NCBI RefSeq assembly: GCF_013387455.1
Contig: NZ_VWNC01000001.1
Location: 124,001-188,000, forward strand
Origin: Mariprofundus sp. NF
GTDB lineage: Bacteria; Pseudomonadota; Zetaproteobacteria; Mariprofundales; Mariprofundaceae
DNA length: 64,000 nt
Direction: 5' to 3'
In this document: piece by piece, positions 33,960 through 49,037 of the stretch
Numbering within the stretch: position 1 is the first letter of the stretch
Layout of the letters: each line of letters opens with the position of its first letter
Made by a program: the position numbers and the translations under genes
Notes under the pieces: model-generated
The model's database searches: none
Told to the model about the DNA's origin: nothing
The model's input: the letters and a program-made list of their open reading frames with translations, nothing else

Positions 33960-35333
33960 TTAACGCTTAACCTGCATCAGTGATGAGAGCATCTGATCCG
34001 TGGTGAGAATGGTTTTTGAGTTGGCCTCATAACCACGCTGTACAATGATCAGTTTTACGAACTCATTGGCCAGATCCACGTTGGACTGCTCAAGTGCGTA
34101 TGGCGAGATGGTTCCCATACCACCTGATCCGGGCAGACTCAGTACAGGTGAACCCGATGAGATGGTCTCAGCCAACTGGTTGGCACCCACGTGGCTAAGT
34201 ACCGCATCATTGGGGAACTTGGCTAGTGCAACCTGATAGATGGCACGGCGCTGACCGTTGGTGAATACGCCGAAGATTTTACCGGCTGAGTCGGTCTCCA
34301 GTTTATCCAGGAAGCCGGCAGGGAAACCGTCACGGGTCATCTGACGGGTAGCAAATGCACCTGCCATCTGCACAGTGCCATCCAGACCTGTACCGGTAAT
34401 GCCCTGCGCATCGGTTGTGGTTGCATTACCATAGTTAATGCTGATTACACTTGGGGCTGCGTTTGCCCAGCTGATCGTTAGATTTGGTGAGACCTCTGTT
34501 ATCAGTTCACCGGTTGAACCAAACACGATGGACTGTGTGCCTGGAACCCAGGCTCCTGCTACTAATGTTGAAGCTGTAGGTGCACTGACCTCAGTAGGCG
34601 TGCCCGGGGTACCAACGGTGAGTTCGCCACCATCAACAGAGGCGTGCCAGTCCCAGACGATGTTGCCGGTTGCATCCAGTCCCATCTTGGTGAACTGCAA
34701 ACTGACTGGGTGTGTCTGGCCGAGGGCATCAAAAACATTCACCTCGGCTTTATAGTGGAATGTGGCTGGATCGGCCGGGTCGAAGACTGTTCCTGTTGCC
34801 AGAACCGTGGAGTTGGAATCGAGTGTGATACCCGCAGTAACGCCCGTAGTTGCCTGAGCCTGAGCTGCCAGATTGGCGAAGGTGATGTCGGTAACATTAC
34901 CGATCGCTCGACCGGTCACATCATCAACGGCAAAACCCTGCACCACATTACCCTGCGCATTGATGAGATTAAAATCCTTATCGAGAATGAATGCGCCGGC
35001 ACGTGAGTAGACCAGTGAGTCGGTGGCCGGATCGCGCATGGCGAACAGGCCGTTACCGTTGATGGCCATATCGGTCGGACTGGTGGTGTTCTGCAACGAA
35101 CCCTGAGCCTGATCTCGAATGATCGAGCCGATACGTACACCGTTACCTACCTGGTTGGCGATGTTGGATCGGGTCACACCCACGGTTTGTGAGAGTACAT
35201 CCGAAAAGTTTACGTTCTGACTTTTAAAGCCGAGTGAGTTGACGTTGGCGATGTTGTCACCAACCACACGTACAGCCTCACCGAATGATGAAAGACCGGA
35301 GGCGCCGATGAAAAGTGCATTATAAATACCCAT
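33960..35333 (-). CDS. flgE: Flagellar hook protein FlgE
   Basis: FlgE polymerises to form the hook. The 457-residue protein starts with the flagellar rod/hook N-terminal motif (ALFIGASGLSSFGEAVRVVG, DNIANVNSLGFK) and ends with the matching C-terminal helix (QSNVDLANEFVKLIIVQRGYEANSKTILTTDQML). The middle contains FlgE-type domains, including PVSLQFTKMG and DGELTVG-like strands. It is last in fliK-flgD-flgE and is followed by a strong terminator. Confidence 0.97.
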   Translation of the reverse strand: MGIYNALFIGASGLSSFGEAVRVVGDNIANVNSLGFKSQNVNFSDVLSQTVGVTRSNIANQVGNGVRIGSIIRDQAQGSLQNTTSPTDMAINGNGLFAMRDPATDSLVYSRAGAFILDKDFNLINAQGNVVQGFAVDDVTGRAIGNVTDITFANLAAQAQATTGVTAGITLDSNSTVLATGTVFDPADPATFHYKAEVNVFDALGQTHPVSLQFTKMGLDATGNIVWDWHASVDGGELTVGTPGTPTEVSAPTASTLVAGAWVPGTQSIVFGSTGELITEVSPNLTISWANAAPSVISINYGNATTTDAQGITGTGLDGTVQMAGAFATRQMTRDGFPAGFLDKLETDSAGKIFGVFTNGQRRAIYQVALAKFPNDAVLSHVGANQLAETISSGSPVLSLPGSGGMGTISPYALEQSNVDLANEFVKLIIVQRGYEANSKTILTTDQMLSSLMQVKR

Positions 35334-35368
35334 GTTATTTCTCCTTTAATTCTTTTGTTTTTTGCCGC

Positions 35369-36046
35369 TTAGATGCGGAGTTCTATGACGTCTGCGAGCG
35401 GTACTGCTTTACCACCCACGATTAATTCTGTGCCACCAGCGCCGAACCGGACGCCTTCAACAAGACCTGAAAGTTGAACTGAAGATCCAACCTCGTTGCC
35501 ACTAACATCAAGTGCACTGACACCTATTAAATAGCTGCCTGCCGAGGCTTTCGCGCCGGAATCGCTCATGCCATCCCAGGTGAGAGCGTTGTCGCCAGCA
35601 TTCAGGTTGCCCTGCATGGTGCGAACCACGTTGCCGTTGGTGTCGTAGATGAAGACGAGTGAATCAGTGGCTGTGGCATCCATAGCGACATTAAATTTCT
35701 GCGTAGTTACGCCGTCGAAGTTGATGGTGCTCTGATCCACAGTTACCGTGTGTCCCAGATAACCGGCCGCGCTTGCAGTGCTTACTGCGCCGCTGCTACC
35801 ACTACCGTTGGCATCTACCAGCTGTTGTAGCAGTTTGTTGGTGCTGGTCTGTTGTTCGACCATATTAAACTGCGCTAACTGCTGCGACATAGCCGTGGCA
35901 TCCTGCGGTTTCATCGGATCCTGGTACTGCATCTGGGCAACCAGAAGTTTGAGGAAGATGTCCTTCTGACCGATATCGCTATTAGAGGCTGGAGCCTTAT
36001 ATGCTGCAGTGTTGACGGTTGAGGCATCTGTTGTTGTTAAAGCCAT
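35369..36046 (-). CDS. flgD: Flagellar hook-assembly scaffolding protein FlgD
   Basis: FlgD caps the growing hook and is later removed. The N-terminal signature DIFLKLLVAQMQYQDPMKPQD and the MSQQLAQFNMVEQQ helix are plain. The C-terminal half (about 110-205) has the FlgD Ig-like/tudor pattern VVRTMQGNLNAGDNALTWDG. Length is 225 residues, as usual. It sits between fliK and flgE, the standard order. Confidence 0.96.
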   Translation of the reverse strand: MALTTTDASTVNTAAYKAPASNSDIGQKDIFLKLLVAQMQYQDPMKPQDATAMSQQLAQFNMVEQQTSTNKLLQQLVDANGSGSSGAVSTASAAGYLGHTVTVDQSTINFDGVTTQKFNVAMDATATDSLVFIYDTNGNVVRTMQGNLNAGDNALTWDGMSDSGAKASAGSYLIGVSALDVSGNEVGSSVQLSGLVEGVRFGAGGTELIVGGKAVPLADVIELRI

Positions 36047-36055
36047 AGTATCCTC

Positions 36056-37687
36056 CTAAACCCGAATGCTCAGGCCGCTTTCTGCGGTGCGAACTGACTG
36101 CTGCATCGATTGGGCGGTCTGGGTCTCTTTGTCGCTATTTTCACCAGCTTTGGCAAACGTGTTTCCGGAACCACTCTCTCCGGAGCCAAAACCACTCTCC
36201 TGACTTTGTGAGCCCATGGAGAAGCCGGATAGATCAAAGCCTTGCTGTGCAAGGGCTGCCCTCAAGGCTGGCAACTGCTGGTCGATTGCTGCACGAGTGG
36301 TGCCCTGATCGACAACCATATGAACCTGTAGCTGTTTGCTGGCGTCGGTCTGCAGAGTGATCTGAATTTTTCCGAGATGAGCGGGATCGAGTTGAATTTC
36401 CAGTTTTGTCTGACCATTGCTGGCTGACTGGGCAATATGTTGCATGCTGTCAAACACGGTCATGACCGGGGCAGATTTGCCGGTCAGGTAGCTCTGAAAC
36501 TGTGTGTTACCAGTTGAAGAGGTTGCACCGGAACGGGTGTCGCCACTCATGGCTGACATGGCACGGCCATCTTGCGCGCCCCTGTCTGATGCGTGGTTAC
36601 CGGCATCAGAGGTGGATGCGTCGGATATGGTGCTCTGTGCAACTGTGGCGGTAGCACTGGCTTGAGCTGCGGTCTGTTGAGGCTGTCCATGCGCATTTTT
36701 GCCCTGCATGTGGTTTTGTACAGCGGCAGCAAATGCAGCGCCATTCGTAGTTTTACCTAAAGCTGGCTCTTTGGCCTCAGTTTTCATTGCTGTGGCTACA
36801 TTGGTGGCGATGGTTTTTGCATCACTACCTGCGGCAACGTTAGCGGCAGCTTTTTGCCTTGATAGCTGACCATCTTTCATTAAACCTGAAACAGCCGCTT
36901 CCGCTTTTGCCGAGTTCAGATCTTTTGTCAGCTGGGCCGCTACCTCTGGCTTGGCAATGCTGAACTCCGCCTTCTCACCTTTGCTAAGCTGAGCCGATGT
37001 CTCTGGTTTGGCGATGCTGAACTCTGCCTTCTCACCTTTGCTCAGCTGAGCCGATGTCTCTGGCTTGGCGATGCTGAACTCCGCCTTCTCACCTTTGCTC
37101 AGCTGAGCCGATGTCTCTGGCTTGGCGATGCTGAACTCCGCCTTCTCACCTTTGGTCAGCTGAGCCGATGCATCTGGCTTGCCGATAGTGAACTCTGCCT
37201 TCTCACCTTTGCTCAGCTGAGCCGATGCATCTGGTTTACCTATGCTGAACTCTGCCTTCTCACCTTTGCTCAGCTGGGCTGAAACATCTGGCTTGCCAAT
37301 GGTGAACTGTGTCTGCTCGCCTTTTTTCTTCTGAGTCGATGCTTCCGGATTGCCGATGATGAACTCTGCCTTCTCACCTTTGACAAGTTTGGTCGCAGCT
37401 TCAACTTTTTCACCTGCAAACAGGACAGTGGCGACAGGTGTGCCACTTTCCGCTGCTTTCTTTTTAGTGAGAGGATCCTGTTCGGCCATTTTGGCTACGA
37501 ACTTACCTTTCTTGAGTGCCAGCGCGTCTGGTTCCGTGGCAGTAAACAGCCCTTTGCCTTTGCCCTGACCCTGCTTATCCAGCATTGCCATCAGCTTGGC
37601 GAAGAGGCCACCTTTTGCCGACTTCCCTGATTTCCCTAAGATGCCGGATAGGCCGGTTCCATTTATTTGTTCGATCATGCCAACCAT
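36056..37687 (-). CDS. fliK: Flagellar hook-length control protein FliK with a 19-residue repeat array
   Basis: FliK measures hook length and switches export specificity. The C-terminal FliK domain is recognisable: GQTKLEIQLDPAHLGKIQI (about 417-435) followed by VHMVVDQGTTRAAIDQQLPALRAALAQQGF. The N-terminal half contains eight tandem repeats of about 19 residues (residues 99-250, consensus AQLSKGEKAEFSIAKPETS); see the separate repeat entry. The rest is Ala/Gln/Thr-rich and low in complexity, as usual for FliK. The protein is 543 residues; ATG 37678 (MIEQING) is an alternative start. Confidence 0.92.
   Translation of the reverse strand: MVGMIEQINGTGLSGILGKSGKSAKGGLFAKLMAMLDKQGQGKGKGLFTATEPDALALKKGKFVAKMAEQDPLTKKKAAESGTPVATVLFAGEKVEAATKLVKGEKAEFIIGNPEASTQKKKGEQTQFTIGKPDVSAQLSKGEKAEFSIGKPDASAQLSKGEKAEFTIGKPDASAQLTKGEKAEFSIAKPETSAQLSKGEKAEFSIAKPETSAQLSKGEKAEFSIAKPETSAQLSKGEKAEFSIAKPEVAAQLTKDLNSAKAEAAVSGLMKDGQLSRQKAAANVAAGSDAKTIATNVATAMKTEAKEPALGKTTNGAAFAAAVQNHMQGKNAHGQPQQTAAQASATATVAQSTISDASTSDAGNHASDRGAQDGRAMSAMSGDTRSGATSSTGNTQFQSYLTGKSAPVMTVFDSMQHIAQSASNGQTKLEIQLDPAHLGKIQITLQTDASKQLQVHMVVDQGTTRAAIDQQLPALRAALAQQGFDLSGFSMGSQSQESGFGSGESGSGNTFAKAGENSDKETQTAQSMQQSVRTAESGLSIRV
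36938..37393 (-). repeat. Tandem 57-bp coding repeat inside fliK (8 copies)
   Basis: Eight in-frame copies of a 57-bp unit encode AQLSKGEKAEFSIAKPETS and variants. The promoter-distal copies (encoding IAKPETS) are nearly identical at the DNA level; the two copies nearest the start (IIGNPEAS, TIGKPDVS) have diverged. This suggests recent expansion at one end. Each copy adds 19 residues to a protein whose length is known to set hook length. Confidence 0.9.
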
Positions 37688-38051: not shown

Positions 38052-38129
38052 ATGAACAGCACGGACAAGTTAGAAACAATCAAAAGCCTGAGCGTTGAAT
38101 TTGTAGTTCTGTTCGCAGTGAAATCATGA
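38052..38129 (+). CDS. Possible 25-residue leader peptide coupled to the next gene
   Basis: An ATG after GGGGG opens a 25-codon frame (MNSTDKLETIKSLSVEFVVL then FAVKS). Its stop overlaps the start of the next gene as ATGA, a classic translational coupling. The downstream gene has no separate ribosome-binding site of note. The peptide itself resembles nothing I know. Confidence 0.4.
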   Translation: MNSTDKLETIKSLSVEFVVLFAVKS

Positions 38130-38620
38130 GTTACCACTTTTTCTTATTTTCACTCTTAATGTATTCAGTGAGCTTAGCTCTTAAATATGAGGCCTGTCGG
38201 CCAGGCTTGGAATACCGACCAAGCTTCAATGAAGTTCGGGCATATCGTATTAAAGATGAAAAAGAACGAAGAAATGCAAGAGCATTTAAAATTCTAGCTA
38301 TATTTCTTGCCGTCTTTGCAACTATAGCTTTGCCCTTAAACCCTAGTCTCCCAAATCTATTAAATGATAGAGAATTTGTATCTGTATTGCTGCGAATGAT
38401 TTTAGGTTTTATTCTGTTTTCTAATTTTTTCGCTCGGAACACTCTCTATAAAGAAGAGTACTCGGAAGGATTGATGTATTCTTTCCCATTGATGGGGATT
38501 CTTGATGTTTATATAAAAACTGGATGGTTCGTAAAAGGCTCGGACTTCATCTCGTTGGTGGTAAATTTAACCACTGCAATGGCGATAAGTGGGGTGGTGT
38601 TATTTCTATATTACATTTGA
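38126..38620 (+). CDS. Orphan multi-span membrane protein of unknown function (palindrome-bounded)
   Basis: A 164-residue protein with four or five hydrophobic segments (about 3-20, 53-74, 85-103, 117-133, 142-163) and a charged cytoplasmic-type loop (RIKDEKERRNARAFK). No family is recognised. It is clearly A+T-rich compared with the flagellar genes around it and runs against them. Palindrome E lies upstream and palindrome F starts five bases after its stop. The start overlaps the leader ORF. It is best described as an acquired single-gene unit. Confidence 0.7.
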   Translation: MSYHFFLFSLLMYSVSLALKYEACRPGLEYRPSFNEVRAYRIKDEKERRNARAFKILAIFLAVFATIALPLNPSLPNLLNDREFVSVLLRMILGFILFSNFFARNTLYKEEYSEGLMYSFPLMGILDVYIKTGWFVKGSDFISLVVNLTTAMAISGVVLFLYYI

Positions 38621-38624
38621 CCGC

Positions 38625-38672
38625 GAATGACTGCTTCCGACCGTTTGAACCGAAGACCCAAAGCAGACATTC
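38625..38672. repeat. Dispersed palindrome, copy F (long loop)
   Basis: Arms GAATGACTGCTT and AAGCAGACATTC with a longer centre (CCGACCGTTTGAACCGAAGA then CCCA). The centre contains a second small inverted repeat. It shares GCTTCCGACC and GACCCAAAGCAG with copy A. It separates two neighbouring orphan units. Confidence 0.8.
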
Positions 38673-38714
38673 AGATTTTGCTATAATTCTTTCTCAATGG
38701 AGGGGGAGTTAACG

Positions 38715-38858
38715 GTGTTAGAGTCAGTTGTTCATAATCTATTCGGAGCAACAATCAGCTTCTTTCTGATTTTCAGACCTTTGTCTGTTGCTGGATTCAT
38801 GGGCTATATTTACTGGCAAATGTTAAACTCACCCCCATGGGTGGCAATGAAGAGATGA
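38715..38858 (+). CDS. Possible 47-residue membrane peptide, first of an overlapping pair
   Basis: A GTG start after GGGGGAG (about 38702-38708) opens a 47-residue frame with one hydrophobic segment (FGATISFFLIFRPLSVAGFM). The stop overlaps the start of the next tiny ORF (ATGA). The pair fills the space between palindromes F and G exactly, which favours real genes. It could also be one gene with a frameshift. Confidence 0.45.
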   Translation: MLESVVHNLFGATISFFLIFRPLSVAGFMGYIYWQMLNSPPWVAMKR

Positions 38859-38953
38859 AAAATCATTTCTTTGGAACAAACCCATTTTGGTTCAGGTTGC
38901 TAGGCGTAATGTATGCGGTACTTTGGCTATATCCATTGGTAGTTGCTGAATGA
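38855..38953 (+). CDS. Possible 32-residue membrane peptide, second of an overlapping pair
   Basis: The frame starts inside the preceding stop (ATGA) and encodes MKNHFFGTNPFWFRLLGVMY and a hydrophobic end (LWLYPLVVAE). Its TGA stop lies inside the left arm of palindrome G, the same stop-in-repeat arrangement seen for the permease gene and palindrome A. No family is known. Confidence 0.45.
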   Translation: MKNHFFGTNPFWFRLLGVMYAVLWLYPLVVAE

Positions 38954-38975
38954 CCGCCGCCGAAAGCGGACATTC
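38948..38975. repeat. Dispersed palindrome, copy G
   Basis: GAATGACCGCCGCCGAAAGC followed by GGACATTC. The right arm is exact; the left arm is imperfect. It closes the 3' side of the pair of tiny ORFs, and its first bases contain their stop codon. Confidence 0.75.
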
Positions 38976-39102
38976 GATGAGTTGCTTCAGTTAGCGTTTA
39001 TAGGTTGTGATTGAATGAAAAGTGGCCACGAGTTTTGCAACTGGCGGCCACGGGTTGGGCAGTTTAATGCAAGTGGCTTGCACGTAGCGATAACATGGTT
39101 AG

Positions 39103-41961
39103 TTAATCGTCTTTGTGTTCACCAATCAGAATCAGTTCGGCAATGTTATGATTGAACTTGGTCCATGAGTAGCGGGAGACCGGATTTCCGAATGGGTTGA
39201 GAATGATCTGGTGCTGACGAAGACAGGCGTAGTCCTCTTCACGCGGGAAGAGTTTGCGGATGGTGTTCTGCAGAGGATCATTCCATATAAAACTCTCTTT
39301 CAGGCGATAGCCAATCCAGACGTAACCATCAGCCAGCAGACTGGCAAACAGCGCTTCAGCATCTTCCGGCAGCGGTGCAGTCACAGTCAGGGTCAGGATA
39401 TCCATCTCATCAACATCACCGACATCACCCATCAGGTCATCAATGGTGTGGCGCAGGGTGCGCTGCAGTTCATAAGCAGCAGGGTTTTCAGAGCGATACA
39501 TGTGGTAACTCGTGTGTGCAACATAGGTGCCATAAAAGGCATTCGGCACGGTGACGTGAATCTCGTGTGGCAGATTGAAACGTTCCAGCTCCTCCTGCAG
39601 TAGCAATGCCTGGTCACGATTCTCAAGCACAGGGTAGATATCAGGATGGACACCCAGCTCATTCACGATAGTGACCAGATGTGAGAGTACTGTGGCGATA
39701 CTGGCATAGGGGTGCGCTTTCAGATGAGGGGCACGTGAAAGCAGGATTTTATCGGCATCTTTCACATAGGGGCGCAGGAAATTCATGTTGGCATAATTCC
39801 AGCGAACCAGATCAATACTGATTTGATTATCATCACTGCCGGTGCGGCGTTGCAGGTAGGCCAACTGATCTGCGCACTCCTCTTTGCTCATATCATCAAT
39901 CAGGGTGACATGGATGCTGTCAAAATCATCGAGCAGGCGTTTGAGCAGCAGTGGCAGGCTGCCGACCCATCCGGTGATCAGAAGATTAAGATCTTTCTTG
40001 AGTTTGGTTTTGATCAGTCCCTGAGGGGGTTCAGCCAATACCGGGCATGGTCTGTCATGTAGGCGTTTGATGGCAAACAGTGTTTCAGAATAGAGTGCAT
40101 TAGGGCTGATGGAGATGCCCAGAATGGATGGGATCTGCATCGGCAGCTCTAGTGCGTCAGCCTTATAGAGCGGGTGTGCACGTCCCGATGCATCGGTCAG
40201 GCCAAGGAGTGTAACCCCGCGCATCAATAACTGGGCAGCAAGCCTGTTCAGTGGCATCGACTGCTTGTTATCGGGCAGGCTAAGCGTGAGTTCACCATCT
40301 TCAAGCTGCAGTGTGCCGTCCCATTCAGAGATCTGCAGAGAGGAGTCCTCTGTGCGATCAGGGATCATCAACCGTTCCATCACCTGATCAAAATCTTTAT
40401 AGACCAGAATGTTGCGGAATAGATTGGCGCGAACGTCTGCCTGTGAAAGGACGACGGTCGGTTTATTATAAAAGCCGGACGTATCCCAACCCACCTGCAA
40501 CATATGCTGATGAGAGTCCAGATGCGGGGTTGCCATGCCGGGCGTGGAGACATTGATATAAATTTCCGGATTGACCCGGCGCACGGCAATCAGGGAGTAG
40601 GTGGCATGGGCCAGATCATCAGCGCCAGTGTGACCATCGGGAAGATTGATCACCGCCTGTCTGGCGTGGCCCAGATTGATGCGCTGCAGCGATTTTGTCT
40701 CTTCCACTTCACCCCAACGGTAGGATACCCAGCTGTGTTCGATGAGTGAATCAGGCATCTTTTCACTGTTGTTGAGGATCACCAGTTTTAATTTGGAGAA
40801 GTTGCGTTCTGATACGACTTTCAGCTGTTCAACGATAAATGGTGCAACTTTAGACCATCCCAGCATCACCATGTGGTTGGTAATGTTCAGACGTTCGTTA
40901 CGTAGTTTGGCCATCAGGCCGGAGACGATGTGGGCACCGATACCGATGAAGAAGGCGAAGATGAATACGCCGACGATGACTGCCAGTACCGAGAAGACGA
41001 CAATTGAGGTCTCCTCGGGATAGGTCACGGTATTGCCGGGATCGGTAAACATGCGGAAGGCGAACCAGATGGGGGCAAACATGCCTTGATCCTGTGCATT
41101 GACCACGCCATCCTGGCTGTAGTCGAAATTAGGGAAGGAGTAGTGGCCGATAACGCCGCCACCGATGGAGAGTACAGCCAGCAAGAGCACGATCAGATTG
41201 ATCTCCTGCATGAACTGACCTTCGCGCATCACCTCTTTGAGGTTTCTGATAATGACCATCCACGGGCGCAACAGGCGCACCAGTCGCAACATACGTAGCG
41301 CGCCACCATAAGGAATGAAGGCAAAGGCAGGGATCATCACAATCGTGGCAATGGTATCGATCCACCAGTAAGTCCATTCAGCTATTTTGTCTTTTCGCGA
41401 TTCATAATTCATGTGTCGCATAATCAGCAGGCGAATCGCCAGCTCGACAGCGAAGAAGATAATGATAATCCACATCAGGGTGTCTTCGGCAAAGAACGAG
41501 AGCAGAATAATCAGTGAGATCAACATGCCATAGGTCGGTGAATACATGGCACTCTGCAGGTCCAGATAGCGGAACATGCGCAGTGTACGCAGCAGGTAGA
41601 AGGCACGAATCAGACGGGCTGCCGCAGCGTTTTCGGCATCAATGGGGATATCAAATACGGTAATCAGCAGAGAGAGGATGCCGATGACATCCAGTACTAA
41701 AAAGAGCGCGTCAATTTTTTGATTCAGAGAGGAGCGATAGGGGTTGGTTTGGCGTTTGTTGATCATGATGGCAAGACGCATGGAGAGCTCGCCGACAAAG
41801 AATATAAAAAGAACTGCAGCCAGAATTTGACTATGGGTGAAGGAGAGTGCAATCAGTGCCATCATCAGGAAACCAAAACGTGGATGCATCAGGATCCACT
41901 CCATGTGATGGTAGAAAAGCGGCCGGTCACTGAATACCGATTGCATATTATTATTCTTCAT
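39103..41961 (-). CDS. CASTOR/POLLUX-like ion channel with duplicated voltage-sensor-like module
   Basis: A 952-residue membrane channel. The N-terminal 245 residues hold two similar four-helix modules: LFIFFVGELSMRLAIM (50-65) parallels IIFFAVELAIRLLIM (167-181), and two Arg-rich S4-like helices follow (RLIRAFYLLRTLRMFR, 116-131; LRMLRLVRLLR, 222-232). A pore region comes next (about 252-345; WFAFRMFTDPGNTVTYPEE), without a TVGYG filter but like the DPGN pore of CASTOR/DMI1 channels. The remaining 600 residues are two RCK/TrkA-like cytosolic halves (MVMLGWSKVAPFIVEQL; NLLITGWVGSLPLLLKRL). Ion selectivity is unknown. It follows the MotE-like gene, within the flagellar cluster. Confidence 0.85.
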   Translation of the reverse strand: MKNNNMQSVFSDRPLFYHHMEWILMHPRFGFLMMALIALSFTHSQILAAVLFIFFVGELSMRLAIMINKRQTNPYRSSLNQKIDALFLVLDVIGILSLLITVFDIPIDAENAAAARLIRAFYLLRTLRMFRYLDLQSAMYSPTYGMLISLIILLSFFAEDTLMWIIIIFFAVELAIRLLIMRHMNYESRKDKIAEWTYWWIDTIATIVMIPAFAFIPYGGALRMLRLVRLLRPWMVIIRNLKEVMREGQFMQEINLIVLLLAVLSIGGGVIGHYSFPNFDYSQDGVVNAQDQGMFAPIWFAFRMFTDPGNTVTYPEETSIVVFSVLAVIVGVFIFAFFIGIGAHIVSGLMAKLRNERLNITNHMVMLGWSKVAPFIVEQLKVVSERNFSKLKLVILNNSEKMPDSLIEHSWVSYRWGEVEETKSLQRINLGHARQAVINLPDGHTGADDLAHATYSLIAVRRVNPEIYINVSTPGMATPHLDSHQHMLQVGWDTSGFYNKPTVVLSQADVRANLFRNILVYKDFDQVMERLMIPDRTEDSSLQISEWDGTLQLEDGELTLSLPDNKQSMPLNRLAAQLLMRGVTLLGLTDASGRAHPLYKADALELPMQIPSILGISISPNALYSETLFAIKRLHDRPCPVLAEPPQGLIKTKLKKDLNLLITGWVGSLPLLLKRLLDDFDSIHVTLIDDMSKEECADQLAYLQRRTGSDDNQISIDLVRWNYANMNFLRPYVKDADKILLSRAPHLKAHPYASIATVLSHLVTIVNELGVHPDIYPVLENRDQALLLQEELERFNLPHEIHVTVPNAFYGTYVAHTSYHMYRSENPAAYELQRTLRHTIDDLMGDVGDVDEMDILTLTVTAPLPEDAEALFASLLADGYVWIGYRLKESFIWNDPLQNTIRKLFPREEDYACLRQHQIILNPFGNPVSRYSWTKFNHNIAELILIGEHKDD

Positions 41962-42020
41962 GGTTCAGGCTCACTGTTGTGTGTAGTGGTGAAATAGTAT
42001 CAATGCCAAATCGAGGTGTC

Positions 42021-42698
42021 TCATTTTACTGTGCTGATCTGGCGGGTCAGCGCCTGACTGATGGTCACTGCCTTATCCGCCGGCATAAACGAGAGAATCT
42101 TACCTACCTTCTTCTCATCCATGAGCAGAAATACTTTGATAACATCTGCAAGCTCCATCTTGGCAATCACCGGTGCCGCCTTCTCGGGTTTCATGCCTTC
42201 AAATACAGCCGTCAGTCGTTTTACCTTTTTGCTCTTGATCTTCTTCTCATCATCAAGGCGCTGTTTGATGCTGGTCTCAAGCTGTTCCAGCTCGGTGATT
42301 CTCCGCCGTACCTGCTCATCGGCCTCATTGATCGATTTTTCCCGCTCATCGAGTTGTTTGGCGCGGCTGTCCAGGTTCTCTTTGTAGGACCTTAGCTCAG
42401 AGAGTGTCTCATCATCGTGACGGGAAGAGGAGCCGCTTCTCGCGGCTTGAGCGGGAGCGGCTGCTTCAGCCCGGGGGATAATATAGGCCTCAAGCATGGC
42501 CAGCGACTGGTCGATCGTTGGCTGTTCAGCTGGTCCGCTGGCAGGAATGCTTGGTGTCACAGTCGTTTCAGATGCAGTTGCTGTGTAGATGGCGGCATCG
42601 GTAGTTGAGGTGGCAGGCCATAGTGTAAAGCCGAGCTTGCCGCCGAGTAGAATGCCGATAACGATAAAGATTCGAATAGATAGTTTATGGGGTGTCAT
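42021..42698 (-). CDS. MotE-like flagellar protein (membrane span, coiled coil, MgtE-N-like end)
   Basis: A 225-residue protein with one N-terminal membrane span (IRIFIVIGILLGGKLGFTLW), a linker, a long coiled coil (about 95-165) and a C-terminal helical domain (FEGMKPEKAAPVIAKMELADVIKVFLLMDEKKVGKILSFMPADKA). That last domain resembles the MgtE N-terminal/FliG-like fold. This is the layout of MotE, a periplasmic chaperone for the stator protein MotC in Sinorhizobium, and of proteins placed after fliJ in many species. ATG 42698 follows the fliJ stop directly; the upstream frame is inside fliJ. Confidence 0.75.
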   Translation of the reverse strand: MTPHKLSIRIFIVIGILLGGKLGFTLWPATSTTDAAIYTATASETTVTPSIPASGPAEQPTIDQSLAMLEAYIIPRAEAAAPAQAARSGSSSRHDDETLSELRSYKENLDSRAKQLDEREKSINEADEQVRRRITELEQLETSIKQRLDDEKKIKSKKVKRLTAVFEGMKPEKAAPVIAKMELADVIKVFLLMDEKKVGKILSFMPADKAVTISQALTRQISTVK

Positions 42699-42702
42699 AG
42701 TG

Positions 42703-43143
42703 TCATACCGATGAGGAGGATCTTCTGGATGCAACCATATCATCCATCTGACGCTGAGCTTTCAGGTCATCCTTCCTGTTCTGTTTTTTTGTCTCTTTCT
42801 GATGCATGCTGTCGTAGGTGTAGTGGGTGCGCTGGGCCTTGGCCAGCCGCTCGAATATATCCTTCTTCTCCACTTCCATGGCTTTGATGCCAGCCTTGAT
42901 TGAGGTGAGTCTGTTCTGCTGCTCGCGAAATGCGGTATCAAAGACCTGCAGCAGCGATGCGGAGTGACGCTTACGCATGGCCTGGTCACGCTGCTGGTTC
43001 AACTGCTTGATATGTGCTTCAGAATTGAGGAACTGCTGTTCTAGCGTATGTTTGCGATCATTGAGCTCTGCCAGTTGCGTTTCAACCTTATTGCGCTCTT
43101 GCTCGCTGAGCCGCGTTAAAAGTTTGGACGTTTCTAGTTTCAT
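42703..43143 (-). CDS. fliJ: Flagellar export chaperone/ATPase stalk protein FliJ
   Basis: A 146-residue, almost fully coiled-coil protein (Glu/Lys/Gln-rich, few hydrophobics), as for FliJ, which links the FliI ATPase ring to the export gate. The beginning MKLETSKLLTRLSEQERNKVE matches the family. It overlaps the fliI 3' end by 56 bp, longer than usual. The C-terminus is Ser-rich. Confidence 0.9.
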   Translation of the reverse strand: MKLETSKLLTRLSEQERNKVETQLAELNDRKHTLEQQFLNSEAHIKQLNQQRDQAMRKRHSASLLQVFDTAFREQQNRLTSIKAGIKAMEVEKKDIFERLAKAQRTHYTYDSMHQKETKKQNRKDDLKAQRQMDDMVASRRSSSSV

Positions 43144-44515
43144 TCAGGCTCTCCTCATTGGTCATGCTACTAACCAGCTGTAGCAATCCCTGTGCCGATT
43201 CTTCACGACGGCTTGAAGATTTGAGTTCCTGCTGTAAAAAACTGCGAATTGCTGGAATAACTTCGATCACCTGATCGAGTTCCGGGTTGGTTCCCGACTC
43301 ATAAGCACCGATAGAGATCATGTCCTCCATATGCTCGTACTGGGACATTTTCTTACGGAAAGCACGCACAGCCTTCATCTGAACGCTGCTCAGTAGCTGG
43401 TTATCCAGACGGCTGACACTTCTTAATACATTGATGGCAGGAAAGTGCCCCTGCTCAGCAAGTTTGCGATCCAGAATGACATGGCCATCGAGAATGGCCA
43501 TGGCGGCATCGGCAACCGGGTCTGCTTGCAGATCGTCACCTTCAATCAGTACCGTATAAAAAGCACTGATATCACCCTTCTTGACGCCCGGACCAGAACG
43601 TTCAAGCAGTTCAGCCATGAGTGAAAAGCATGACGGTGTATAACCTTTACTGGCTGGTGGCTCACCCAGCATCAGCCCGATCTCACGCTGGGCCTGGGCA
43701 ATACGGGTCAGACTGTCGACCATCAGCAGGACATCTTTGCCATCTTCCCGGAATGACTCGGCAATGGTGGTGGCAATATAGGCAGCCCTTACCCTGAGTA
43801 CCGGCGGCATATCTGAGGTGACCACCACCACGACACTGTTTTGCAGCGCTTCAGCACCGAGTGAGACATCAAGAAACTCACGCACTTCACGACTGCGCTC
43901 GCCAATCAGGGCGATAACATTGATTTCGGCATCCGAGTTTCGGGCCAGCATGCCCATCAGCGAGCTTTTACCGATACCGGCTCCGGCAAACAGTCCCATG
44001 CGCTGGCCCCAGCCCATAGGCAGACAGGCATCCATCGCCTTGACTCCCAGCTGCATCGGCCTGTCAATGATATGACGATCAAAGGGGTTGAGTTTAATGC
44101 CCTGAATATTGCGTACTCTGCCTGTAGCGGGTAGTGGTTTGTTATCCATCGGTTTGCCCATGCCATCAAGTACGCGGCCCAGCAGATGATTGCCGACGCG
44201 AATGCTGGGAAGTCCTGAGAGGGGGCGAATCGGGTCACCCGGGGCAATGCCTACAGTTCGGCCTACCGGCATCAGCAGGGTATATTCGGCCCGAAATCCG
44301 ACCACTTCAGCCTCAAGCGTATGACCGGTAGCGCAGTTGATTTCACAGACATGGCCGACACTTGATTTGAGTCCGGTCGCTTCAAGCATGGGGCCAAGCA
44401 CCTTGTAGACCTTGCCACGCACCGGGAAAACATTGTGGCACTGCTGCTCAGAAAGAACCTCTTCTCTCTGCTTTTTATCCCAGAGTGGTATGGAGGTTTT
44501 AGGCTTGGGGTCCAT
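43088..44515 (-). CDS. fliI: Flagellum-specific ATPase FliI
   Basis: The ATPase of the flagellar type III export apparatus, related to F1-beta. It shows Walker A GAGIGKSSLMG, Walker B VLLMVDSLTRIAQAQREIGL, and PPASKGYTPSCFSLMAELLER. The 475-residue length exceeds that of many homologues because of a C-terminal tail (about 20 residues) that overlaps fliJ. It overlaps fliH by 17 bp, so the genes are co-translated. Confidence 0.97.
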   Translation of the reverse strand: MDPKPKTSIPLWDKKQREEVLSEQQCHNVFPVRGKVYKVLGPMLEATGLKSSVGHVCEINCATGHTLEAEVVGFRAEYTLLMPVGRTVGIAPGDPIRPLSGLPSIRVGNHLLGRVLDGMGKPMDNKPLPATGRVRNIQGIKLNPFDRHIIDRPMQLGVKAMDACLPMGWGQRMGLFAGAGIGKSSLMGMLARNSDAEINVIALIGERSREVREFLDVSLGAEALQNSVVVVVTSDMPPVLRVRAAYIATTIAESFREDGKDVLLMVDSLTRIAQAQREIGLMLGEPPASKGYTPSCFSLMAELLERSGPGVKKGDISAFYTVLIEGDDLQADPVADAAMAILDGHVILDRKLAEQGHFPAINVLRSVSRLDNQLLSSVQMKAVRAFRKKMSQYEHMEDMISIGAYESGTNPELDQVIEVIPAIRSFLQQELKSSSRREESAQGLLQLVSSMTNEESLNETRNVQTFNAAQRARAQ

Positions 44516-45209
44516 CGTTGCTTTCCGGTGTAACTACTGTTTCGGTGAGCAGTTCAGGGCGCAACTGATCCATATAGTTGGCTACCGCAGCGACAGGATC
44601 AATCAGGATATCCTCTTGAATGGAGATGATGCGGCATGTTGCAGGTTGAATGGCATCATCACTGGTAAGTATGGCCATCAATTCGCTCTCATCGAGCAGC
44701 CGTTTAAAGATGGCGTGATCTGCGGGTGCGACAGCGATGCGAAGTCCACTGGTGTCGGGAAGATGTTCTGCAGCCTGCTCTGCAATTTGCCAGAGTTTTG
44801 ATCTGTCGGTATCCAGTGTTTCAGCGATAATCTTCTCGGCAATATGCTGGGCAACATCCAGTGCTGTTTCGGCAAAGGCCAACTTGACCTCATCAATCGA
44901 CTTTTCAGCGCCCTGGAGTGTCTCCTGAATCGATTCAAGGAGTTGTTCAGCCCTCTTCTGTCCCAGTGCCATGCCTGCCTTCTCTCCGGCGAGATAAGCG
45001 TTGTCATAGGCCTCTTTCTCGATCACCTCAGCTCTGCCTTGCGCCTCCTGCAGCATCTTCTCCAGCTGCTTCATGCGATCAACACCAGCCAGCGGCTGTG
45101 CCTCTGCAGCTCGACCCGTATCGGTTACTGTTCTGTAGGGGAAAGCCCCCTTGTCGGTGATGTTCGGGTTAATCTCTTCCCGGAAAGAGAGCGGATTGAT
45201 CGTATTCAT
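44499..45209 (-). CDS. fliH: Flagellar assembly protein FliH
   Basis: FliH holds FliI at the export gate and limits its ATPase activity. The 236-residue protein has a variable N-terminus, a coiled central region (MKQLEKMLQEAQGRAEVIEKEAYDNAYLAGEKAGMALGQKRAEQL) containing the expected Gly/Ala-spaced helix, and a C-terminal V-ATPase-E-like domain (VAQHIAEKIIAETLDTD; EDILIDPVAAVANYM). Position between fliG and fliI is standard. Confidence 0.93.
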   Translation of the reverse strand: MNTINPLSFREEINPNITDKGAFPYRTVTDTGRAAEAQPLAGVDRMKQLEKMLQEAQGRAEVIEKEAYDNAYLAGEKAGMALGQKRAEQLLESIQETLQGAEKSIDEVKLAFAETALDVAQHIAEKIIAETLDTDRSKLWQIAEQAAEHLPDTSGLRIAVAPADHAIFKRLLDESELMAILTSDDAIQPATCRIISIQEDILIDPVAAVANYMDQLRPELLTETVVTPESNDGPQA

Positions 45210-45214
45210 GGGGA

Positions 45215-46216
45215 TCAGACCATGTCATCGGCTGTGCTGAGTGCAATAGCACCATCATCATCGAGCTTGCGGATCACCTTGAGTACGCCCTGCTGAGCCT
45301 CTTCAACATCCGAGAGCTTCATTGGCCCCATCACCTCCATGTCCTCGCGCATGATCTCAGCAGCACGCTGTGACATATTGCCAAAGAAACGCTCACCAAT
45401 TTCATCAGAGGCACCCTTGAGTGCTTTGACCAGATCATCAGAGGAGATATGTTTGAGAATGGTCTGGATATCACGGTCGGAGAGATCTTTCAGATCTTCA
45501 AAGACAAGCAGCATACGGTCCACCTGGGTAAACAGATCCTCATCTTTATCGCGCAACTGATCGAGAATCGGACGTGCCACCTCTTTCTCCAGCCCTTTGA
45601 GAATATCCACCACACTGATCATACCATCAAAGCTGATGCCGGAGTCACCCTGCATATCCGCCAACTCTTTCTCGAGTGTCTCCTCAATATCTTTAACCAG
45701 CTCTCTGGGCACACTTTCAATCTTGGACATGCGCATGACCACTGAGAGCTGCATCTCCTCCGGCAGCAGTGCAATAACACGACTGGCGACCGAGGAGTCG
45801 ATGTTGCCCAGAATCAGCGCGATCGTCTGCGGATGTTCATCCTTAATATAGGAGGCGATCATGTCGGGTTTCAGACGTGAAAGTTTTTCCCAGATATCAA
45901 GCGACTTGGGTGCCGAGAGTTCATTGAGAAGACGGTCTGCCCGCTCATGTTCAATGGCATAACGAAACAGTGAAACGACATCTTTCTGGGAGGAGCGCAT
46001 GAGCGGATCTTCAGAGCGGTGCAGTTCCAGATACTCTTTGGTTACAGCATCGAGAACTTCTGTATCAATCTTACCCAGTTCCGCCATTCTTCGGCCCAGA
46101 CGACTGAGTGTTTTGTCATCCATATGCTGTACAAGCGGAGCTGATGCTTCCGGCCCAAGGGCAAACAGAAGAATGGCAGCTTTATCTTCACCGCTTAGCT
46201 GAGTTTTCCCCTTCAT
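45215..46216 (-). CDS. fliG: Flagellar motor switch protein FliG
   Basis: FliG couples the stator to the rotor and sets rotation direction. The 333 residues contain the N-domain (SGEDKAAILLFALGPEASAPLV), middle domain with the EHPQT site (IKDEHPQTIALIL), and the C-terminal torque helix with charged residues (FEDLKDLSDRDIQTILKHISSDDLVKAL; MREDMEVMGPMKLSDVEEAQ). ATG 46216 overlaps the fliF stop as ATGA; the upstream ATG 46231 would give a 19-bp overlap. Confidence 0.97.
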   Translation of the reverse strand: MKGKTQLSGEDKAAILLFALGPEASAPLVQHMDDKTLSRLGRRMAELGKIDTEVLDAVTKEYLELHRSEDPLMRSSQKDVVSLFRYAIEHERADRLLNELSAPKSLDIWEKLSRLKPDMIASYIKDEHPQTIALILGNIDSSVASRVIALLPEEMQLSVVMRMSKIESVPRELVKDIEETLEKELADMQGDSGISFDGMISVVDILKGLEKEVARPILDQLRDKDEDLFTQVDRMLLVFEDLKDLSDRDIQTILKHISSDDLVKALKGASDEIGERFFGNMSQRAAEIMREDMEVMGPMKLSDVEEAQQGVLKVIRKLDDDGAIALSTADDMV

Positions 46217-47856
46217 ACCGGATCCACCCATTCGCGCATGACTTTATTGGCTCGATCAGGCTCTGTTACCACGCTCTGCCTGACCTGTTCCATATTGGCC
46301 AGACGCGCATAGGCTTCGCCGGACAGCTGATGCTGACCAAGCACACCTTCAGGGCCTTTTCTGGCCGCCTGCTGTTGCTCTGCAGACTCCTGAATACGGC
46401 GGGCAAGAGGTCTGAGTACAAACCATCCGAGCAGTAACAGCGCCAGCCCGGCAAGGCTGTAGCGCACAATCTGCATGTAGAAGACTCTGTTTTCGGATGA
46501 GGCGAGCGCCTCACCATCAACAACGCTGGAGATATCGATCAGTGGCATGCTCTGCACATCAACTGAATCACCACGATCTTCATTGAAGCCCATGGCACGT
46601 TCAACCAGCGCCTGGATGCTGGATAACTCCTCTTTGCTGCGTGGGGCGAAGCTCGTTTCACCATTTTCACCGGTCTGGGTTGCACCGCCGACAATGACGG
46701 CTACGGAGAGTTTGTTGATGCTGCCAAAGGGCACAATGCGATGCTCATTGATGGTGCTGATTTCGTAGTTGTTTACATCCTCATTACGGCTTGCGCTGTC
46801 ACTGGGTTGTGCCCCTGTAGTGCCGGTTGCCGGATTGGCACCGGGGGTATTAGAGGCCAGACCGGGAACGCCGAGGGCAGCACCCTCATTGGACTGGCGA
46901 TTCTCCGAAATGCTCTTGCGACTGCGCAGTACCTGTTCATCAGGGTTATAACGGGTGTTTTTCTGTTCGATAAACTCGCGGTTGATGTCGGCTGAGACAC
47001 GAACAACAGCCTGGCTTACACCAACAATCTGCTCAAGCATACCTGTCAGTCGCTCTTCCATGCGCTGCTCAAGTTTACCCTGATACTCCTGCAGCGTTTG
47101 ACCCTCGCTCATCGGAGCCTCTTTTTCGTTGGCTGAGAGTAGTGAACCTGATGCATCGACAACGGTGACATCACTCTGGTCCATCTCAGCCACACTGGCG
47201 GCAACCAGATTCTGAATCGCAATGACTGATCTCTTGGGCAGACGCTGTCCACCGGAGAGTTGCAACATCACCGAAGCTGTAGCTTTGCGGTCACGATCTG
47301 CAAATGCTGACTCTTTCGGCAGTACCAGATGTATACGTGCGGCGCTGATTTGCGGCATCACTTCAATGGTGCGTGCAAGCTCACCCTGCAGCGCACGTTG
47401 CAGATTGATTTTGCGGGTGAAATCACTAAGGCCGAACTCGTTGCTTTGATCAAAAATTTCAAAGCCGGTTTTACCCGAAGGGGTAACACCCTGACCGGCC
47501 AGATTCAGGCGAACCTGATAAACCTGATCCTCTGGAACCATGACGGTACCACCGCCCTCCAGACGGTAGGGGATATGCTCTTTCTGAAGCATTTCTACCA
47601 CTGTAGCGGCATCTTTTTCCGCCATGCCGGCATAAATGGCCCGATATGGTTTCTCTGATGACCAGAGAACAAGGCCAAGAAAACCGGTCAGCATCAGACT
47701 TGCTGCGGCAAAGAGAAGAATTTTTCTGTATTTTGCCAGCACCTGTGGAACCTGGATTGTGGCGCCCGGCGCCGTTGCACCTGCCTCCTGCGAGGTGGCA
47801 TCAATGGGATTGGTCGCCATGTTCATCGGTGTCTGCGGCATCAGTGAGTCAGCCAT
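46213..47856 (-). CDS. fliF: Flagellar MS-ring protein FliF
   Basis: FliF forms the MS ring in the inner membrane, the base for the C ring and export gate. The 547 residues have two spans (about 47-66 and 448-466), the YscJ/FliF domain (YRAIYAGMAEKDAATVVEML, VMVPEDQVYQVRLNLAGQG) and the beta-collar domain. A low-complexity Gly/Ala/Pro stretch lies at about 310-340. The C-terminal cytoplasmic tail (NKVMREWVDPV) is the FliG-binding end. Confidence 0.97.
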   Translation of the reverse strand: MADSLMPQTPMNMATNPIDATSQEAGATAPGATIQVPQVLAKYRKILLFAAASLMLTGFLGLVLWSSEKPYRAIYAGMAEKDAATVVEMLQKEHIPYRLEGGGTVMVPEDQVYQVRLNLAGQGVTPSGKTGFEIFDQSNEFGLSDFTRKINLQRALQGELARTIEVMPQISAARIHLVLPKESAFADRDRKATASVMLQLSGGQRLPKRSVIAIQNLVAASVAEMDQSDVTVVDASGSLLSANEKEAPMSEGQTLQEYQGKLEQRMEERLTGMLEQIVGVSQAVVRVSADINREFIEQKNTRYNPDEQVLRSRKSISENRQSNEGAALGVPGLASNTPGANPATGTTGAQPSDSASRNEDVNNYEISTINEHRIVPFGSINKLSVAVIVGGATQTGENGETSFAPRSKEELSSIQALVERAMGFNEDRGDSVDVQSMPLIDISSVVDGEALASSENRVFYMQIVRYSLAGLALLLLGWFVLRPLARRIQESAEQQQAARKGPEGVLGQHQLSGEAYARLANMEQVRQSVVTEPDRANKVMREWVDPV

Positions 47857-47868
47857 GATTTAAATCCC

Positions 47869-48174
47869 CTATACCTGCATGCGGATGATTTCGCGGTATG
47901 CATCCACCAGTTTATTGCGTACGCCAAGCATCATCTGAAACGAAAGGTCAGCCTTCTGAATGGCCATAAGGGTTTCGGAGGTGTTGACACTTTCACCTGT
48001 CGCCAGTGCCACCGATGCGCTGGCTGCAGCTTTTTTATCATGGTTCATCTGCTCGGTGTATGCCTTGAGCATTTCGCCGAAATTATCTGCTTTGCCGGCG
48101 GTTGATCTGTCACCAACCTGCAGACTGTTGCTGCCGGTAAGGCCAGTTGTGGGTCCAATGCCTTGAATACTCAT
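47869..48174 (-). CDS. fliE: Flagellar hook-basal body protein FliE
   Basis: FliE connects the MS ring to the rod. The 101-residue protein ends with the family signature: ETLMAIQKADLSFQMMLGVRNKLVDAYREIIRMQV. Its place between flgC and fliF is standard. Confidence 0.96.
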   Translation of the reverse strand: MSIQGIGPTTGLTGSNSLQVGDRSTAGKADNFGEMLKAYTEQMNHDKKAAASASVALATGESVNTSETLMAIQKADLSFQMMLGVRNKLVDAYREIIRMQV

Positions 48175-48183
48175 GACAATCTC

Positions 48184-48630
48184 CTATTTCAGCAGTTCGA
48201 GTGATTTAAGAAACATCCGTTTGGATGCCTCCATGGTGGATACATTGGCTTCAAAACTTCTTGCCGCCGAATTCATGTCCACCATCTCTTCCACCGGATT
48301 TACATTCGGCATGCGCACGACACCTTTGCCATCGGCATCAGGATGCGAGGGATCAAAAACCTCACGAAACGGGGTGGGATCCTGCGCTACATGCGAAGCT
48401 CTTACCGATTGATGGCGATCTTTTGCAAAACTGCTGTTAAATACATTTGAGAATGACTGGGTTGCAGGTGTGGCCTCAAAAACAGCCTGTCTGCGACGGT
48501 AGGGGCCACCATCAGGGGTGCGGGTTGATTCGGCATTGGCGATATTTTCCGCCACAATGTCCATGCGAGAGCGCTGTGCAGTCATGCCTGCTGCACTGAT
48601 GTGCATGGAGGAGAGAAGATCATTAGCCAT
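48184..48630 (-). CDS. flgC: Flagellar proximal rod protein FlgC
   Basis: A 148-residue rod subunit. It has the rod N-terminal motif (SAAGMTAQRSRMDIVAENIANAESTRT), the FlgC-specific PYRRRQAVFE and the C-terminal helix VDMNSAARSFEANVSTMEASKRMFLKSLEL. The start overlaps the flgB stop by one base. Confidence 0.97.
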   Translation of the reverse strand: MANDLLSSMHISAAGMTAQRSRMDIVAENIANAESTRTPDGGPYRRRQAVFEATPATQSFSNVFNSSFAKDRHQSVRASHVAQDPTPFREVFDPSHPDADGKGVVRMPNVNPVEEMVDMNSAARSFEANVSTMEASKRMFLKSLELLK

Positions 48631-49037
48631 TAGCGATTACCCTCCTTGATGGCATTGAGCAGTCCGCTGATGCGACCTTTGGCCAGTCGCATGGAGAGCT
48701 CATGCATCAGCTGGTTTTCACTCATGCGCGCCATCTCTTTCTGAATATCCACAGTGTTGCCATCCATTCTGCGGGCCGGACTGTAATCGAAAACGGAGCT
48801 GCTGCTCAAACGTCCACTGCCACTATCACTGATATGGCCGGCGTGTGTGGCGGCAGGTTTGCCTGCCCCTTTGTGTTGTTGCCTTTCGCTGAGGAAGTCA
48901 GCAAACGAGCGGTTGTCCGCCCGATAGTTAGGTGTGTCGGCATTGGCAATGTTGCTGGAGGTGACGCTCTGCGCTTTTTCTCTGGCGATCAGAGAGGATT
49001 CAATGCGCTGGAATCCGTCGCCTAACATATCAATCAT
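48630..49037 (-). CDS. flgB: Flagellar proximal rod protein FlgB
   Basis: A 135-residue rod subunit with the FlgB patterns AQSVTSSNIANADTPNYRADNRSF and NTVDIQKEMARMSENQLMHE. It is the first gene of the long run flgB-flgC-fliE-fliF-fliG-fliH-fliI-fliJ-motE. A strong AGGAGG precedes its ATG, and a sigma54-like promoter lies upstream inside the end of the regulator gene. Confidence 0.96.
   Translation of the reverse strand: MIDMLGDGFQRIESSLIAREKAQSVTSSNIANADTPNYRADNRSFADFLSERQQHKGAGKPAATHAGHISDSGSGRLSSSSVFDYSPARRMDGNTVDIQKEMARMSENQLMHELSMRLAKGRISGLLNAIKEGNR

Follow-up and report, generated by a model that had tools for sequence, protein, structure and literature searches.

The 64,000-nucleotide stretch analyzed here (hereafter, the window), from the marine iron oxidizer Mariprofundus sp. 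NF, carries a flagellar gene cluster in the order flgB–flgC–fliE–fliF–fliG–fliH–fliI–fliJ–motE–channel–(opposite open reading frame)–fliK–flgD–flgE, and the subject of this analysis is the channel gene within it. The initial annotation of the window had placed this gene between motE and fliK, a position confirmed by the MgtE_N and Flg_hook domains of the flanking genes, and had read its product as an ion channel in which two voltage-sensor-like modules precede a single pore and two RCK-like halves. The host genome (2.53 Mb, 99.8% complete) holds the gene in one copy, and the nearest named record, from Mariprofundus sp. KV, is 89% identical. A peptide-pattern scan of 84,980 species, whose reach is limited to close relatives, returned 16 channel loci, all from Zetaproteobacteria by title, with one titled only "uncultured proteobacterium". 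Searches with the single window protein against Pfam, NCBIfam and PDB sequences gave no informative match, and a profile of the channel family (A2) was therefore needed. The family set comprised matches of more than 300 bits spanning the profile, namely 127 matches and 59 distinct sequences, which the tree divides into 47 short and 12 long members (the contig-truncated L099 being counted as long). The searches made found no full-length relative outside Zetaproteobacteria. Viral contigs and plasmids likewise contained no relative, and the idea of the channel as a phage or plasmid passenger was rejected on that ground.

The two stretches aligned by eye in the initial annotation map to residues 52–66 and 167–181 and belong to modules that proved to be genuinely related. 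Using profiles of the 59 relatives, both built from one and the same species set, hhalign aligned module 1 (residues 14–136) with module 2 (residues 137–249) at a probability of 97.6 (E = 4e-12, score 69.5), whereas the best of 40 column shuffles scored 20.1 and the modules scored 12.0 and 16.0 against the pore. Scores against bacterial NaV sensors were 34.3 and 41.2, and those against two single Kv sensors ranged from 23.1 to 38.0. On these profiles the two modules are homologous and their tandem arrangement is real; because they score higher against each other than against the sampled ordinary sensors, an origin by duplication within the gene is favored. Also as annotated, each module has an S4-like helix with arginine at every third position (R116/R119/(Y122)/R125/R128/R131 and R223/R226/R229/R232).

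The charge-transfer partners of a voltage sensor are an S2 FxxE motif and an S3 aspartate. In module 1, F55, E58, R62, D91, R116, R119, Y122 and R128 are invariant in all 59 sequences, as are E173, R177, D202, R223 and R226 in module 2, and the invariance of the S2, S3 and first S4 charges extends to sequences that share as little as 22% identity with that of the window. Position 125 is arginine in 57/59 and lysine in the other 2, and R131 is retained in 56/59. Conservation of R229 (47/59), R232 (46/59) and F170 (47/59) is lower; judged by these alignments, the second S4 is the weaker one, mostly in the long forms, where its run is shortened. The family profile also matched a KvAP-type chain over residues 136–342, weakly (E = 0.033). 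Pfam Ion_trans (PF00520) gave no match in the window protein, perhaps because the modules have diverged beyond its reach.

Structure prediction, proposed in the initial annotation as a check, agreed in helix number: both AlphaFold2 models drew four helices per module, at a confidence too low to settle the fold. These models, built from close orthologues, covered the full chain (14 orthologues, mean predicted local distance difference test score (pLDDT) 56.3) and residues 1–367 (15 orthologues, mean pLDDT 54.5). Each showed, at low confidence, ten transmembrane-length helices including S6, plus a pore helix (295–306). VIA comparison matched residues 12–137 to CavAb (Z 8.8, root-mean-square deviation (rmsd) 3.1, 105 aligned) and residues 138–238 to TRPV2 (Z 9.0, rmsd 3.0, 91 aligned), while talin and a 5-HT3 receptor scored 9.6; the talin, 5-HT3 and AUX1 rows were regarded as generic helical matches. 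Foldseek with the membrane model returned nothing below E = 0.1. Because the membrane-part VIA matches are unspecific, the modules are only putative S1–S4 bundles.

The cytoplasmic part gave clearer relationships. Foldseek ranked the LjCASTOR gating ring first (E = 1e-14), followed by Slo2.2 and Slo1. In VIA, residues 361–949 aligned to residues 320–852 of CASTOR (6o7a_B) with Z 16.9 and rmsd 16.4 over 440 aligned residues, and residues 504–950 alone with Z 16.6 and rmsd 4.1 over 344, in a ring model of uneven confidence (ten-residue means 23–89). Several Slo rows aligned model residues ~133–951 and left module 1 over; since these alignments begin at about residue 130, it is module 2 that corresponds to the ordinary sensor, with module 1 as the addition. 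When the profile was run against the rest of 398 sampled Pseudomonadota genomes, the best match outside the class was L137 (genome G377; E = 1.5e-9, residues 288–450), which is 635 aa long, bears a DPG motif and is clearly homologous to CASTOR (E = 6.5e-66; Castor_Poll_mid, E = 1.1e-28). Together, the CASTOR-type ring, the filter described below and the match to L137 place the origin of pore and ring, as far as such comparisons reach, on the CASTOR/POLLUX side, in support of the annotated order of a CASTOR/POLLUX-like pore followed by two RCK-like halves. According to a CASTOR study, the CASTOR topology has four transmembrane helices, the last two forming the pore (PMC6697748), in place of the ten helices and pore helix of both low-pLDDT models here. 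Pfam Castor_Poll_mid (PF06241), matched by L137 and L139, found no match in the window protein. Given these two differences, we did not file the protein as a CASTOR/POLLUX/DMI1 member.

The tandem modules are followed by one pore, as annotated. The window protein has no K+ filter of the TVGYG type and carries TDPGN at residues 306–310 instead. Within the family, G309 is conserved in 59/59 and D307 and P308 in 53/59. CASTOR, whose filter reads AD(S/A)GNHA, is selective for Ca2+, and no current was obtained from the D265N mutant of this channel (PMC6697748). The two filters have Asp, Gly and Asn in common and differ in their flanks; because of this CASTOR-like D-x-G-N filter, our best guess for the pore is that divalent ions (Ca2+) permeate it. 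A paralogue clade (L092, L037, L039, L040, L041 and L042) reads AAGN at this position and possibly conducts another ion or has a dead pore.

Between S5 and the pore helix lies a loop (residues 280–291, DYSQDGVVNAQD) whose residues follow the EF-hand/dockerin loop order. The EF-hand loop pattern is D-x-[DNS]-x-[DNS]-G-x-[ILV]-x3-[DE]. D280 is invariant (59/59), position 282 is D/N/S/T in 59/59, 284 is D/N in 53/59, and 291 is D/E in 58/59. A relaxed EF loop pattern occurred at the site in 57/59 sequences and, over 26,371 positions, 3 times elsewhere; with a strict PROSITE-like pattern, the site matched in 17/59 and no other position did. A count of four, four and two helices predicts that the loop, a putative divalent-ion site, is periplasmic and that the RCK ring lies inside.

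Table 1 Features of the channel gene and its flagellar neighborhood; positions refer to the window.
Feature	Position	Strand	Basis
Whole channel gene, 952 aa	39103..41961	-	ATG start, single stop; orthologues 59–89% identical
Voltage-sensor-like module 1, residues 27–132 (S1–S4)	41566..41883	-	Modelled helices, conservation, profile homology
Module 1 marks: S2 F55-x-x-E58-x3-R62, S3 D91, S4 R116/119/125/128/131			
S4-like helix of module 1, residues 112–132	41566..41628	-	Conservation, model
Voltage-sensor-like module 2, residues 142–235	41257..41538	-	KvAP-type match, conservation, profile homology, model
Module 2 marks: S2 F170-x-x-E173-x3-R177, S3 D202, S4 R223/226/229/232			
S4-like helix of module 2, residues 220–235	41257..41304	-	Conservation, model
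S5, residues 250–275	41137..41214	-	AlphaFold2 models
EF-hand/dockerin-like loop, S5–pore linker, residues 280–291 (DYSQDGVVNAQD), predicted periplasmic	41089..41124	-	Conservation, pattern scan
Selectivity-filter motif TDPGN, residues 306–310	41032..41046	-	Conservation, CASTOR filter comparison
S6 and cytoplasmic extension, residues 318–356	40894..41010	-	AlphaFold2 models
Double RCK gating-ring subunit, residues 361–949	39115..40881	-	Foldseek, VIA
motE-like gene with MgtE_N domain, 59 bp upstream of the channel gene	42021..42743	-	Domain match
fliJ, fliI, fliH, fliG, fliF, fliE, flgC, flgB, upstream	42703..49037	-	fliJ, flgB and flgC named by position
fliK, downstream	36056..37687	-	Flg_hook, E = 3.8e-21
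flgE and flgD, downstream	33960..36046	-	

Synteny with flagellar genes in relatives, the other check that had been proposed, was positive: the motE–channel–fliK order of the window recurs in several genera and in three families of Zetaproteobacteria (the other two represented by L086 and L095). Within 6 kb of 58 short copies, a count that left out fragments and the 3.6-kb contig G006:C72, 29 had only same-strand flagellar genes, 6 only chemotaxis genes, 1 both and 22 neither, so that 36/58 lie near motility genes (flagellar 30/58, chemotaxis 7/58). The copy with both is L174 (MotE–channel–CheY–CheA–CheW), and the chemotaxis neighbor of the copy in G061 is only a methyl-accepting chemotaxis protein (MCP). 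A short form was present in 43/51 genomes with a FliG match and in 5/27 without (Fisher p = 1.6e-8, a hand count in which relatedness is ignored); none of these linkage counts takes kinship among genomes into account.

Several further observations concern the flagellar clusters. In G048, the cluster is split over two contigs (L079, L093) with a channel copy in each half, MotE–channel on one and channel–FliK–FlgD–FlgE on the other. Between the window channel and fliK lies a membrane-like open reading frame of 164 aa (38126–38620, +) with a weak SLATT similarity below the cut-off (E = 0.0033) and without a tblastn match in any of 47 related loci. The N-terminal half of FliK (36056–37687, −) contains several KGEKAEFSIAKPE-like repeats, and a promoter and terminator scan of positions 38500–43200 found no excess over shuffles.

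A second form of linkage, to chemotaxis genes, appeared in the long forms. These proteins (~1,100–1,700 aa, 22–24% identical over the sampled membrane–RCK1 part) constitute one clade (SH-aLRT 100). By Pfam, the L102 operon encodes an MCP, the channel, a response regulator, CheA with receiver, CheW, CheB and CheR, and tblastn found this order again in the other readable long-form loci. With short-form fragments left out of 60 places, CheA (PF02895) lay within 8 kb in 29 of the 45 long places, always downstream and on the same strand; 15 of the remaining 16 are cut off by the end of their contig no more than 2.7 kb beyond the conserved part, and the 16th is G050:C89. As a yardstick, of 63 listed Ion_trans places of the class with a single sensor, 3 have CheA within 8.5 kb. 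In 28 of 29 complete cases, L102 being the exception, the stop codon of the long form and the start codon of the CheY-like gene share the overlap ATGA, which, read from gene layout, is the arrangement of translational coupling. Repetitive C-terminal stretches (e.g., ETEAETE; the end of L044) stand just before contig ends in long forms and may be the cause of their assembly breaks.

The B clade of short forms provides a third arrangement, in channel–CheY–CheA–CheW–MCP operons. Its channels end in D-x-DVELF-like tails and the long forms in YVMEEERxVLRxEL, while the clade of the window protein has none of these tails. An xWxxF tail is a tether for CheR/CheB. The MCPs of B-type che operons (L087, L088, L172, L226, L227 and L232) carry (D)DxWEEF-like tails (DDVWEEF-like) whose sequence fits this pattern, and they much resemble the acidic DVELF tails of the adjoining channels; docking of partners by the channel tails is a guess. 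The place directly upstream of CheY–CheA–CheW–MCP is taken in G085 by a single-sensor K+ channel (L226:8236–9159 (−), L227:7789–8835, L087:11604–12647) that has a TVGYGD filter, a zinc ribbon at the C-terminus and a tail reading DD-x-x-LF. In G052 and G001 it is found near che operons, and it may fill the slot of the twin-sensor channel.

In the window genome (G000), as in G002 (the PV-1 contig) and G074, all three with a FliG match, neither CheA (PF02895) nor MCP (PF00015) was matched. A complete lack of chemosensory kinases in the window genome was rejected as a reading, given an Hpt–HATPase–CheW–REC kinase of 810 aa on contig C7. The cluster there (L237:7903–14541, −) comprises a PilB-like ATPase with receiver, CheW, an MCP-like protein and the CheA-like kinase; the ATPase and the MCP-like protein, which has no Pfam match, were named by eye, and the kinase lacks PF02895. 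The PV-1 genome paper reports very few MCPs and leaves the coordination of motility unexplained (PMC3179512).

The initial annotation had suggested that the channel could link membrane potential or ion flow to motility. Its genetic part proved stronger than a single locus could reveal, because two other clades are built into chemotaxis operons; the effect of ion flow or potential is what we infer. The pattern of three clades linked in different ways suggests that the channels form a motility family. What the sequence shows is the architecture with its duplication, the conserved charges, the relationship of the ring, the motif of the loop and the linkage of the genes. The best explanation as a whole, and one we consider probable, is a channel that senses voltage, is probably permeable to divalent ions and passes membrane potential on to the control of the motor. 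It would form tetramers in the inner membrane and conduct cations, with each subunit ordered as two voltage sensors, one pore, RCK1 and RCK2. Module 2, at the Slo-sensor position, would drive the pore via the S4–S5 linker, and module 1, produced by duplication, would serve as an additional outer sensor. At its periplasmic mouth, the EF-hand-like loop would serve as a sensor or collector of a divalent ion; on the other side of the membrane, the RCK ring would respond to a cytoplasmic ligand. A change in membrane potential would then cause ion entry and alter flagellar switching or speed, with the flagellar-operon copy acting directly at the motor and the chemotaxis-operon copies via CheY/CheA. 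Our confidence is highest for a cation channel and falls, in order, through a motility role, a voltage-sensing function of one module or both and divalent permeation to periplasmic divalent sensing. Separately, L170:7254–13167 (G032) carries two short-form genes in tandem on one strand, whose products could form mixed tetramers.

Several findings weigh against this explanation. The membrane models are poor (pLDDT 54–56), and the VIA sensor matches, at Z about 9, are no better than those to talin or the 5-HT3 receptor. The six members of the AAGN clade depart from DPGN, and none of their fetched copies is motility-linked. The EF-like loop is clearly degenerate in four B-clade sequences, and Pfam searches with 40-aa loop pieces (seven of them locus pieces whose reading frame was not checked further) gave no significant match, with one Dockerin_1 at E = 0.14. 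Eight of the 51 FliG-positive genomes lack a short form, including the single-contig assemblies G007 and G011, which carry flagellar genes and a FliG only 45% identical to that of the window. Finally, 22/58 short copies show no motility genes within 6 kb, 7 of these 22 being readable for 6 kb on both sides.

The foremost alternative is gating by ligands or divalent ions through the RCK ring and the periplasmic loop: the two modules, as in many TRP channels, would be insensitive to voltage and would instead have a structural role or bind lipids or ligands. TRPM8, TRPM5 and TRPV2 are among the VIA matches of both modules, most long forms keep only two arginines in the second S4, and the CASTOR/Slo ring is strong; however, module 1 keeps five S4 arginines together with the S2 glutamate and S3 aspartate at 22% identity, beyond apparent structural need, and we regard this alternative as unlikely while ranking it above the others. 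It is rather improbable that the protein is a general ion-homeostasis or osmotic channel, placed beside motility genes by chance or co-expression only: the short copies elsewhere (22/58) and the presence of the channel in 5/27 genomes without a FliG match would suit it, but it has to accommodate three clades each differently linked to motility genes, the ATGA coupling to a CheY-like gene in 28/29 cases, and the rarity of CheA near other channels (3/63). Least probable is a K+ channel of Slo/MthK type that would serve the motor by setting the membrane potential: the ring does resemble Slo1/Slo2 and MthK, but TVGYG is replaced by a TDPGN filter with the Asp essential in CASTOR.

With CASTOR/POLLUX/DMI1, the plant nuclear Ca2+ channels, and bacterial kin such as L137, the window channel shares a double RCK ring of the same fold, the D-x-G-N pore motif and a profile match to the pore–RCK1 part of the bacterial members; it differs in that two sensor modules, rather than a short N-terminal transmembrane part, precede the pore, in lacking Castor_Poll_mid, and in its EF-like loop and flagellar/chemotaxis operons. 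Slo1/Slo2 (BK, Slack) have the same order of sensor, pore, RCK1 and RCK2, to which the window channel adds an N-terminal sensor module and from which it lacks the K+ filter. Both modules show the S2 Glu, S3 Asp and S4 Arg pattern of KvAP/NaV-type bacterial voltage-gated channels, which have one sensor per pore and other filters and, in NaV, no RCK ring. Two-pore channels also have two sensors per chain, each with its own pore, whereas here both sensors stand ahead of one. In the alkaliphilic Bacillus pseudofirmus, the voltage-gated channel NaVBP is reported to take part in motility and chemotaxis (Ito et al. 2004). NaVBP is a Na+ channel with a single sensor, and operon linkage is not evidenced for it here. 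To our knowledge, no described channel has two voltage sensors before one pore. Literature searches on tandem or duplicated voltage sensors, prokaryotic CASTOR homologues, Zetaproteobacteria flagellar genes with ion channels and channels in chemotaxis operons, with most subscription papers and all preprints outside their scope, found no description of such a channel. New here, in terms of sequence and gene order, are the EF-hand-like loop in the S5–pore linker and the motility linkage of the family.

For channel biophysics, the family offers a natural test of the role of a second sensor. For the organism, the channel is a concrete candidate for the motility coordination left unexplained in the PV-1 genome paper: an Fe(II) oxidizer living in opposed O2/Fe(II) gradients would thereby read its own energy state. 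More tentatively, and with somewhat less than even confidence, we propose that Zetaproteobacteria may possess an electrical arm of chemotaxis, in which twin-sensor channels, translationally coupled to a dedicated CheY-like regulator or beside motE, act as receptors of membrane potential and ion flux that steer swimming by energy state; in species such as that of the window, where the standard CheA and MCP models found no match, the flagellar-operon channel would be a main sensory input to the motor. If the channel is coupled to CheY and flagellar genes in this way, it would be a direct genetic bridge from membrane potential to bacterial steering.

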